Source: a virus
Direction: 5' to 3' (one strand)
Length of the DNA: 36,466 bases
IMG/VR virus record: IMGVR_UViG_3300031143_000017
Span: 1 to 36,466 of that record
Each line of letters opens with the position of its first letter. The first letter of the stretch is position 1. Shown here piece by piece: positions 1,253 through 9,914 of the stretch. The translations under genes were made by a program, and so were the position numbers. A model generated the notes under the pieces. The model worked only from the letters and a program-made list of their open reading frames with translations, was not told the origin of the DNA and did not search any database.

Positions 1253-1281
1253 TTGACTTGTTAACAGAACAATGGTATAAT
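1253..1281 (+). promoter_or_regulatory. Early promoter P4, drives a structured RNA leader
   Basis: TTGACT at 1253-1258, 17 bp, TATAAT at 1276-1281. The spacer holds TTGTT-AACAG-AACAA (1258-1272), a perfect 5-bp inverted repeat. Transcription should start near 1288-1291, immediately before the folded RNA at 1291-1348 and more than 210 nt before the next recognisable start codon at 1506. Confidence 0.8.
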
Positions 1282-1290
1282 AGGTACATA

Positions 1291-1348
1291 GGGTAGAGAG
1301 TCTACTGGAGTCTTCGGACTAGGGCGGCAGCGCCACTGCAAGACTCTC
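1291..1348 (+). ncRNA. Predicted three-way-junction RNA (small RNA or leader)
   Basis: Directly after promoter P4 the transcript can close an 8-bp perfect stem, GAGAGTCT (1296-1303) with AGACTCTC (1341-1348). Inside are two hairpins: AGTC-TTCG-GACT (1309-1320), a stable C(UUCG)G tetraloop that CT/AG can extend across a GG bulge, and GGCG-GCAG-CGCC (1323-1334). The second loop GCAG is also complementary to CTGC (1336-1339), so an alternative hairpin or tertiary contact is possible. A weaker GGGT/ACCC hairpin follows at 1361-1375. I found no match to hammerhead, glutamine-riboswitch or tRNA signatures. It could be a free sRNA or the 5' leader of the MazG-like gene. Confidence 0.55.
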
Positions 1349-1505
1349 GCACATCTTAGAGGGTACTCAGCACCCCCCGTCAAGACTGGCCGGGCAAAAG
1401 TAATCTATACAGAATGCAAGTACCTAAAGATTTATATCAATCAACTCAAAGCATTTTCACAGGTTCGCAAAGGGCCACCCCCAAAACTGACACAAAGAGG
1501 TTTAC

Positions 1506-2129
1506 ATGAAATACAAAATAATCGCGGGTCATTCAAACGTCCTACCAGAGTCGATGAAAGATGAATGCAGTTCGGAAGAATTCAACACCATCTGGGAGTG
1601 TGAAGAATGGATTCACAATGAAGTAGATCATCGAATGTACAAGTACGCACTCCATCTAGATGCAGACACAGAGGAAGACTTGGATCGGTTCCGTGAGATC
1701 GAAGCTAATCTAATGACAGTCATTCATCAGCATACAGGGGAGAGTGTTCCCTTCTACAAGAGTCGCAGAGTACTACCCTTTAGAACTCTGGGAGTTTTAC
1801 CCAAGGAGAATCTGAATGACTTTGATGATGAGTTCGGAGACATCGAAGCAGTTGAGAAGCAATATGTCAAGCCCATTCCTATGAACCTTTTAGAGAAGAA
1901 GGCAGAGTCCCTTGTCATTCTTATGGAAGAGTGTGGTGAGGTTATCCAAGAGGCATCGAAGTTAATTCGTTTCCCTCAGAACTTTCCTCACGCACTTGCG
2001 AAGGAGATTGGTGACTTACAGTGTATCATGGACATAGCAATGAGTATCCATGACATTAATCCTATGGACGTTATGCGTTACAAGCGTGAGAAACGGATTA
2101 AACTCGAAACTTATTCTAAGTTAGTTTAG
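1506..2129 (+). CDS. MazG-like nucleotide pyrophosphohydrolase domain protein
   Basis: The C-terminal part (about 127-200) fits the all-alpha NTP-pyrophosphatase fold: EECGE at 141-145 and EIGD at 167-170 match the magnesium-binding ExxE...ExxD pattern of MazG/dUTPase-2-like enzymes. Such enzymes hydrolyse NTPs to NMP and pyrophosphate; phage versions are thought to adjust nucleotide or ppGpp pools or remove modified nucleotides. The first 125 residues are acidic, rich in Asp/Glu/Trp, and unknown to me. The ATG has AGAGG at 1496-1500. It lies behind the structured RNA leader and promoter P4. The domain call is solid; the substrate cannot be read from sequence. Confidence 0.75.
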   Translation: MKYKIIAGHSNVLPESMKDECSSEEFNTIWECEEWIHNEVDHRMYKYALHLDADTEEDLDRFREIEANLMTVIHQHTGESVPFYKSRRVLPFRTLGVLPKENLNDFDDEFGDIEAVEKQYVKPIPMNLLEKKAESLVILMEECGEVIQEASKLIRFPQNFPHALAKEIGDLQCIMDIAMSIHDINPMDVMRYKREKRIKLETYSKLV

Positions 2130-3608: not shown

Positions 3609-3673
3609 TTGAGACAGTATTGTTTATAGTAGCAATGCAACTCCTTGTGACTGTCGTGGTAAGTTACATGTAA
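3605..3673 (+). CDS. Possible 22-aa membrane peptide
   Basis: ATG at 3605 overlaps the previous stop as ATGA, the same coupling seen at 2454 and 2678. The peptide MIETVLFIVAMQLLVTVVVS plus YM is almost entirely hydrophobic, one transmembrane span. Its stop lies at the edge of the 12-bp repeat array. The coupling pattern favours a real micro-protein (holin-like, or a superinfection-exclusion or membrane-regulatory type), but coding evidence from so few codons is thin. Confidence 0.4.
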   Translation: MIETVLFIVAMQLLVTVVVSYM

Positions 3674-3750
3674 TGTACATTGTAGTATACATTGTAATGT
3701 ACATTGTAGTATACATTGTAATGTACATTGTAGTATACATTGTAATGTAT
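3665..3750 (+). repeat. Array of alternating 12-bp repeats
   Basis: Seven consecutive half-units alternate between TACATTGTAATG (A) and TACATTGTAGTA (B). The first A unit (3665-3675) lacks one T; the rest are exact (B 3676-3687, A 3688-3699, B 3700-3711, A 3712-3723, B 3724-3735, A 3736-3747), giving a 24-bp period. ATGTACAT and GTATAC palindromes recur, so both DNA-protein binding and RNA hairpins are possible. It sits in the 3' end of the early operon just before its terminator. Confidence 0.95.
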
Positions 3751-8063: not shown

Positions 8064-9914
8064 ATGGCAACCAAACTACAAGTCACAGAGTTAGACTTTG
8101 ATCTAATCAAAAGCAACCTCAAGACATACATGAAAAATCAGACTGAGTTTTCGGACTATAATTTTGAAGGTTCTGGTATGACTCAAATTATTGACCTTCT
8201 CGCATACAATACTCACTACCTCGCAATGAACGCCAACTTTGCAATGAACGAAGCATTCTTAGATAGTGCAACTCTTCGTTCTTCTGTTGTCTCTCACGCA
8301 AAGGGACTTGGATACACTCCTCGTTCTGCTCGAGCTCCTGTTGCATATGTTGATGTTACTTTAAATTCTTCAACGGCTGCAAGTGCAACTCTTGCAAAGG
8401 GCACACGATTTACTACAAAGATGAATGGTAGTACATTTGGATTTGTAGCAAACGAAGCAATATCTACTACTGCAACAAATGGTGTTATGAGATTCATCAA
8501 CGTGCCGATTTATGAAGGCACTCTTATCACATCCAGATACACAGTAGATTTAAATAACATTGATCAGAAGTTTTTGGTTTCTGATGATCGCGGTGACACT
8601 ACCACATTAAAGGTATCAGTACAAACTTCTGCAAGTGATGTTTCGACTACAACCTACACCCTTGCAACTGACATTACACAAGTGACTTCTGGTGCTAAAG
8701 TGTATTTCCTTCAAGAATCCTCAGACGGAAAATTTGAAGTATACTTCGGAGATGGTGTTATCGGAAGTTCAATCTCCAATGGTAACATAGTTCAACTTGA
8801 ATATATTGTCACAAACAAAGACAAGGCGAATGGTGCAAAGTTATTTTCTACAACATCTGTTGCTGGCGAAACTGATATAACTGTTGCGTCATTGGTTATT
8901 GCAACAGGTGGTGCAGAAGCAGAAACCATTGCATCTATTAAGTTTAATGCTCCTCTTGATTATGCATCACAGGGTAGAGCAGTAACTACACAAGATTATA
9001 AAACAATACTTCCAAAAGTATATGCAGGCACTAAGGCAGTTCAAGTATGGGGTGGTGAAGATAATGACCCACCTATCTACGGACAAGTATTCCTTTCTGT
9101 AAGAACTAAGTCTGGTGTTAATTTAACACAGGCTCAAAAGAATAGCATTGCATTAGATTTAAAGAAATACAATATTGCATCTATTCGTCCAATATTAGTA
9201 AACCCAGTAGCTACGAAGATTAAACTGAAGGTTGACTTTAAGTTTGATAGTAAGACTACCACAAAGACTGCTATTGATTTAGAAACTCTTATTAGAAAAA
9301 CAATATCAACTTACAATTCAAGTGACTTGACAAACTTCGATGTTGTGTTTAGACACTCCAAACTTTCTAGATTGATTGATGGTACAGACCCTTCGTTACT
9401 TTCTAACAGTACAAGACTGTCCCTCAATCAGATTATTACTCCAACGCTAAGTGAGTTGACTCAATACGTCATTAGTTTTAACAATGCATTGTATCATCCA
9501 CACACTGGACATAATGCTGCGTTGGGTGGTATTACTACTTCTACTGGATTTACTATTTCGGGAAATACCAATACGATTTATTTTGACGATGATGGTGCTG
9601 GTAAAATCAGAACTTATTATCTAGTTGGTGGTACTACCAGAACATATGTTGACACAGCAGCTGGGACGATTGATTACACTAGTGGAAAGATAGTAATTAC
9701 ATCTGTAAATATTACTTCTGCAACTAACACAGATGGGACAATATCAGTTGATATTCTTCCTGCTTCTAACGATGTTGTTTCTGTTAGGAACCAGTTGTTA
9801 GAAATTGATTTATCAAATACAACTGTAAATGGTACAGTGGATATTGTTGCTGCAGGCGGTTCTTCTGCTGGTACAGGTTACAGTACTACACAAAACACAT
9901 ACAGCTCATACTAG
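8064..9914 (+). CDS. 6: Baseplate wedge protein gp6
   Basis: The N-terminus (LDFDLIKSNLKTYMKNQTEF, GSGMTQIIDLLAYNTHY, NEAFLDSATLRSSVV) is the signature of T4 gp6, related to baseplate J proteins. gp6 dimers form the inner ring joining neighbouring wedges. Length 616 aa against 660 in T4. The middle contains the usual beta domains and the DYKTILPKVY stretch; near the C-terminus a Gly/Thr-rich beta insert (about 475-560) is probably surface-exposed. It follows gp25 by 33 nt, a gap that contains an AGAAGAGAAGAG purine run serving as the ribosome site. Confidence 0.88.
   Translation: MATKLQVTELDFDLIKSNLKTYMKNQTEFSDYNFEGSGMTQIIDLLAYNTHYLAMNANFAMNEAFLDSATLRSSVVSHAKGLGYTPRSARAPVAYVDVTLNSSTAASATLAKGTRFTTKMNGSTFGFVANEAISTTATNGVMRFINVPIYEGTLITSRYTVDLNNIDQKFLVSDDRGDTTTLKVSVQTSASDVSTTTYTLATDITQVTSGAKVYFLQESSDGKFEVYFGDGVIGSSISNGNIVQLEYIVTNKDKANGAKLFSTTSVAGETDITVASLVIATGGAEAETIASIKFNAPLDYASQGRAVTTQDYKTILPKVYAGTKAVQVWGGEDNDPPIYGQVFLSVRTKSGVNLTQAQKNSIALDLKKYNIASIRPILVNPVATKIKLKVDFKFDSKTTTKTAIDLETLIRKTISTYNSSDLTNFDVVFRHSKLSRLIDGTDPSLLSNSTRLSLNQIITPTLSELTQYVISFNNALYHPHTGHNAALGGITTSTGFTISGNTNTIYFDDDGAGKIRTYYLVGGTTRTYVDTAAGTIDYTSGKIVITSVNITSATNTDGTISVDILPASNDVVSVRNQLLEIDLSNTTVNGTVDIVAAGGSSAGTGYSTTQNTYSSY

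Follow-up and report, generated by a model that had tools for sequence, protein, structure and literature searches.

What kind of RNA is encoded by the segment that follows a sigma-70 promoter at position 1253 of the window, the whole analysed stretch of 36,466 nucleotides from IMG/VR virus record IMGVR_UViG_3300031143_000017, and what might it do? A preliminary description had placed a consensus promoter and a structured RNA between 1253 and 1395, with a perfect 8-bp stem closing two hairpins, one of them carrying a C(UUCG)G loop. The promoter and all of these structural parts are present (Table 1), and the fold is a three-way junction of 53 nt that begins 15 nt 3' of the promoter. Its extent is smaller than initially given: the fold takes up only 1296-1348, whereas 1253-1295 hold the promoter and the 5' end and 1349-1395 lie outside. 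MFE folding recovered the stem and both hairpins, deviating slightly where the second hairpin begins to pair. Compared to shuffled sequences, a 60-nt segment had a folding-energy z of -1.83, and the complete leader one of -0.66. As folding energy alone is unconvincing evidence of structure in the window, we turned to a comparison with relatives.

Table 1. Parts of the junction RNA and its flanking features in the window.
Feature	Position	Strand	Remarks
Sigma-70 promoter TTGACT-17-TATAAT, TG before -10	1253..1281	+	11/12 matches
P1, 5' strand GAGAGUCU (= GAGAGTCT)	1296..1303	+	Covaries at 8/8 P1 pairs across relatives
Core strand A: A-CUGG	1304..1308	+	CUGG invariant in aligned set; A1304 in A.A/U.U exchange with A1340
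P2 hairpin AGUC-UUCG-GACU, C(UUCG)G loop	1309..1320	+	U1320 shared with UAGG (first base)
Core strand B: UAGG, J2/3 = A1321 G1322	1320..1323	+	Invariant in alignment, but fixed by search patterns
P3 hairpin GGCG-GCAG-CGCC	1323..1334	+	Fold and covariation in relatives
Core strand C: CACUG	1334..1338	+	Unconstrained in first pattern scan, yet present
Bulged N+1 = C1339, then A1340, the A.A partner of A1304	1339..1340	+	Module comparison
P1, 3' strand AGACUCUC (= AGACTCTC)	1341..1348	+	Perfect 8 bp with 1296-1303
MazG-like NTP pyrophosphohydrolase gene, downstream	1506..2129	+	PHROG 4856, E 2e-9

Three close relatives carry the window RNA unchanged and were uninformative. The more distant syntenic loci L064-L067, in which the neighbouring gene is 59% identical, contain two copies of ACUGGAGUC-NNNN-GACUAGG...CACUG. 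Pattern scans of IMG/VR with CTGGAGTCNNNNGACTAGG, TAGGNTTAAGAGNCACTG (at least 80 stretches), CTGGAGCCNNNNGGCTAGG and CACTGNTCGCG..CGTCTGGAG recovered 69 distinct modules from several unrelated phage groups. A descriptor combining the three core strands with the three helices gave 165 hits in 1.68 Mb, repeats in overlapping loci included, compared to 5 in five Markov-shuffled copies. An alignment of 35 P1-open copies shows no variation in CUGG, UAGG or CACUG. Patterns and descriptor fixed parts of this core, but the first scan left CACUG unconstrained and the second CUGG, and almost every true member had the unconstrained strand as well; CAGG in L138 and UACUG in the second copy of L070 are rare exceptions. 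When a covariance model was built from 35 relatives, its training set including a locus (L001) identical to the window copy, it found the latter with 58.5 bits (E 2.6e-15), and the window copy has the core that defines the class.

Covariation was computed on a 15-pair structure across the 35 aligned P1-open copies. Paired bases occupied 87.2% of the pairing cells (63.2% in shuffled alignments), 138 cells were changed on both sides (47±6.5 when shuffled), and the covariation score was 0.629, compared to 0.198±0.018 for shuffled alignments and 0.07-0.15 when the structure was slid along the alignment. The sequences of P1, P2 and P3 are free provided that they pair. In most relatives, P3 reads G-N-UUAAGAG-N'-C, with N:N' covarying as GC, UA, AU or CG; in the others, the window copy among them, the stem is longer and ends in a tetraloop. 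Compensatory changes in homologues, whose lack the preliminary description had named as a reason to abandon its proposal, are thus found, and the comparison supports the reading of this promoter-proximal RNA as structured.

The junction itself obeys a further rule that was no search criterion. Across the 69 modules, the nucleotide immediately 5' of CUGG and the second one 3' of CACUG are A and A in 43 cases, U and U in 24, G and C in one and G and U in one. This exchange between A.A and U.U, seen without any AU or UA, holds for 67 of the 69 modules, including the window copy (A1304/A1340), and is the same in all three circular permutations described below. An exchange of this non-Watson-Crick kind suggests, as far as sequence comparison goes, a real three-dimensional contact. 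We infer that the core extends P1 by A.A or U.U, C-G, U.U, G-C and G.A. Directly after CACUG (N+1), 68 of the 69 modules have C, A or U, and one has G. Six loci (L113, L142, L155, L159 at 8527-8615, L170 and L182) share a conserved insert in P2, ACUCACCCGCCCGUCUUGAGGCG...UCAAGCAAGUGAGU, which resembles an H-type pseudoknot set within this hairpin of the junction.

The preliminary description had also noted that the loop of the second hairpin is complementary to the adjoining junction bases, and had proposed a switch between two folds. The GCAG/CUGC pairing is literally there, but it is not conserved in relatives. We rejected the two-state switch because the P3 loop differs in almost all of them (UUAAGAG, GAAA, AAAU and others). 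The CUG of the supposed switch pairing belongs to the invariant CACUG core strand.

No Rfam family matched the window or its relatives, in line with the initial impression. At the gathering cut-off, the window gave 0 hits against Rfam 15, and relaxing the limit to E 10 yielded just two sub-threshold hits, to an lncRNA region and a snoRNA. The relatives' loci gave only tRNA and tmRNA hits, elsewhere in the loci, and representatives of types I, II and III gave one sub-threshold chance hit at E up to 5. A description of this RNA class was not found in the open-access literature searched. Mimicry of rRNA or RNase P was rejected, the best score for E. coli rrnB and rnpB being 11, compared to 24 or more in real modules. 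A DNA-level element is unlikely: the U.G pair in P3 (27 of 35 copies) would be A/C on the other strand. The comparative sequence evidence thus shows the RNA at 1296-1348 to be a member of a new class of compact three-way-junction RNAs, a new RNA family.

All three circular permutations of the junction were found. The P1-open form, to which the window and most others belong, accounts for 45 distinct modules; 16 are P2-open (e.g. L119 upstream of uvsX, L123 and L116) and 8 are P3-open (e.g. L231, L234, L235, L238 and L254). Modules also occur in tandem, as in L083, L110 and L131 (three copies), or appear fused. In L130, three modules would be nested along P1 and P2 into one rod, and two would be joined in L245; fusion via a shared helix is seen as a common P3 in L064-L067 and a common P2 in L264. 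These fused forms are our reading of the pairing, of which MFE folding gives back only some. Together, tandem and helix-fused modules make up about a fifth of the loci.

The module class is found mostly in phages and, as the searches show, almost only in uncultured ones. When three variants of the consensus were compared by BLAST with 50,697 phage records, only chance-level matches resulted, and a model of the P1-open form found no module in the whole genomes of Melnitz, phiM12, Limnohabitans phage DC31 and MT835703. In the nearest isolate, Microcystis phage Mel-JY01, an 8-nt gap on the 5' side of uvsX has no room for a module. A scan of 84,980 bacterial and archaeal species genomes with one pattern form, a collection differing in size from the viral one, gave nine hits, with the fold in only two contigs, both of one SAR202 (Chloroflexota) MAG. 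Their modules (L182 and L187) match the large IMG/VR contigs L170 and L126, possibly as a hint at the host or as binning contamination. No module was found in 300 further genomes of the phylum of the SAR202 MAG. Most carriers have a single module or cluster, even on contigs of up to 174 kb. Among 18 carrier contigs compared, about ten related phages formed one group and several were unrelated; no protein family was common to all 18, a comparison narrowed by the kinship of those ten.

The genomic context of the modules varies. Among 59 distinct elements, ten are preceded at a distance of 4-36 nt by a promoter with at least 10/12 matches, compared to 2.6% of random sites. Others begin a few bases after stop codons (L070, L132, L146, L151, L159 and L168, by simple ORF picking), and the L238 module directly follows a tRNA-Leu, the sole clear tRNA association. 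Relatives adjoin uvsX, DNA helicase genes, a tRNA, many small ORFs and a gene that we ourselves interpret as DUF932-like, its PHROG having no assigned function; the downstream genes (UvsX recombinase, DUF932-like protein, small ORFs) are unrelated to each other. In the syntenic loci L064-L067, L071 and L107, the promoter is downstream of the module. The MazG-like gene predicted downstream of the window RNA is indeed present; going by the differing neighbours of the relatives, it is a neighbour and no conserved partner of the RNA.

Several further features were observed around the modules. The window derives from a T4-like phage, and its ORF at 155-514 resembles a gene of Methylophilales phage Melnitz that lies near gp5-like OB-domain and baseplate-lysozyme genes, the gp5/lysozyme neighbours being the same in both. 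The product of this ORF, located near the module, belongs to a family of small cysteine-rich proteins also encoded in Melnitz and, directly upstream of the module, in L151 (7441-7680) and L168 (2772-3017). Five near-perfect sigma-70 promoters (11-12/12; positions 91, 625, 967, 1253 and 2212) occur within a 2.2-kb part of the window, each followed by a similar purine-rich start and driving single small genes in the manner of an early-gene promoter array. A motif at 1371-1410 of the window, CCCCC..GAACUGGC.GGGCAAA.GUAAUCUAU, is conserved in the syntenic L064-L067, L071 and L107, where in L107 it begins near the transcription start, and a second one, GGGCCACCCCCAAAACUG at 1472-1489 just before the MazG-like gene, is conserved in L064-L067; the two are probably a second structured leader or a repeat. 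Another conserved motif without Rfam match, GGGUUGAAACCCGCAAGUCUUGCCCAAGUCGCAAGCAUAGU...ACUAUUCAA, lies mostly directly downstream of the module (L131, minus strand, about 3635-3705; L141, 2205-2280; L159, 8615-8690; L111, 3930-4015 and just after 5153). In L157 (minus strand, about 6600-6490), and also in L116 and L120, the P2-open module is directly preceded by a tRNA-like sequence that has a perfect T-arm but was not called by ARAGORN; it may be an atypical tRNA or part of a tmRNA. tmRNA genes are located on the module-carrying contigs L168 (824-1298, permuted) and L116 (508-864).

Since ends, loops, neighbours and promoter order are free and the junction core is fixed, the function should be contained in the junction, which would act on the RNA that carries it. 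We rank RNA processing by self-cleavage, and hence a new ribozyme class, first among the possible functions, at a probability of roughly two in five, because circular permutation is documented chiefly in ribozymes and because N+1 avoids G. In hammerhead ribozymes, the base at the cleavage site is C, A or U, not G. Self-cleavage would occur in the core, and our guess for the likeliest site is the bulged nucleotide after CACUG (C1339/A1340 in the window). Cleavage would release the phage mRNA on the 3' side, which would then start with a 5'-hydroxyl, or split it from an upstream tRNA or cistron. Held a touch more tentatively is the full proposal of a new natural self-cleaving class, with three permutations and fused multi-core forms, that processes phage transcripts. 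Circumstantial points in favor are that the carriers share neither a conserved downstream gene nor a common protein family, and the sites after promoters, stop codons and a tRNA are plausible places for transcript processing.

Among known RNAs, the hammerhead (types I, II and III) is likewise a three-way junction whose core strands are short and invariant and whose helices and loops vary freely; it too exists in all three circular permutations and has one junction position that is C, A or U but not G. However, the hammerhead core CUGANGA / GAAA / UH is absent, the module core being CUGG / UAGG / CACUG, and no Rfam hammerhead model matched the window or its relatives, whether by gathering score or with E limits of 5-10. 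We know of no fused multi-junction forms of hammerheads. Natural circular permutation of small RNAs is known chiefly from hammerhead and twister ribozymes (PMC10085705). Twister (types P1, P3 and P5) likewise shares circular permutation and phage-related contexts with the module (PMC10085705), but its core is different and no Rfam match was obtained. Theta (HDV-like) ribozymes of gut phages are small RNAs next to phage tRNAs (PMC10879173), a position reminiscent of the single L238 module after tRNA-Leu; the module, with its three-way junction as the supported fold, lacks their nested double pseudoknot and has no HDV-like Rfam match. Ribozymes located near other ribozymes are known; most new RNA motifs tried as ribozyme candidates fail to cleave, and among the HRIMA candidates only hammerheads did so (PMC10085705).

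Some features of the class fit self-cleavage poorly. A site 10-30 nt from the transcription start leaves little to remove, the preference at N+1 could be one of simple stacking, and the triple rod of L130 and the double modules of L064 and L264 would be superfluous for a ribozyme and seem to fit multivalent binding better. They bear on the main rival, nearly as likely as self-cleavage in our estimate, in which the module is a cis docking site for a conserved host factor, for instance RNA polymerase (put-like antitermination) or an RNase or ribosome component (mRNA-end protection). The junction would bind the factor, and additional modules would raise avidity, as the fifth of loci with tandem or helix-fused modules might indicate. 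The lack of a phage protein common to all carriers is expected for a host partner, and a subset of modules lies 10-30 nt from strong promoters. The HK022 put RNA is comparable in being small and folded, in its place at early promoters of the phage and in requiring no phage-encoded protein, putL being located just downstream of PL (PMC9378689). Nevertheless, put is an RNA of about 70 nt with two stem-loops and a triplex, unlike this junction. Many modules lie within operons after stop codons, away from promoters, those of L064-L067 and L107 lie upstream of the promoter, and circular permutation is undocumented for docking elements. To our knowledge, put has no permuted or fused forms.

An unlikely alternative is that the module acts in trans, as a decoy or small RNA that, on an abundant transcript, titrates a host defence factor, a toxin or an RNA regulator. 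Near-confinement to phage contigs, multi-module forms and the lack of a fixed relation to genes or promoters would all suit such a role, but one copy in most carriers and arrays of at most three would make a poor sponge. The preliminary description had also suggested an abundant early small RNA, which the segment might encode.

More improbable still is a small-molecule aptamer in a riboswitch leader, with a nucleotide as the ligand in the preliminary description. The junction core is compact, the module often lies 13-31 nt before a start codon, and tandem copies occur, as they do for glycine and glutamine riboswitches, the latter often in bacteria. The downstream genes are unrelated, however, the leaders inspected have no recurring expression platform or Shine-Dalgarno occlusion, and relatives do not preserve the loop needed for the suggested switch. 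A leader by which the MazG-like gene would sense nucleotides, which calls for a fixed position before a functionally coherent gene set, is not supported, since the relatives adjoin unrelated genes and the promoter order is flipped in syntenic phages. The glutamine riboswitch (glnA RNA) is a structured element in related marine T4-like, Melnitz-like phages (PMC9004378), but its core differs from that of the module, and neither the window nor the relatives scanned gave an Rfam match. Finally, chance hairpins after a promoter, without a function of their own, would agree with a window folding energy that only mildly beats shuffles (z -1.83), but are ruled out because the helices covary strongly in dozens of contexts that are unrelated to each other and because shuffled sequence yields almost no modules.

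Junction-core RNA classes with natural permutation have so far been chiefly ribozymes. A further one in uncultured phages would be a catalyst or else a general RNA handle on the host machinery, and new in both cases. The modules of this class measure about 50 nt, and its core is defined to the nucleotide. Its fused forms, in which the core of one module appears built into P1, P2 or P3 of another, would provide a natural set for studies of modular RNA architecture.
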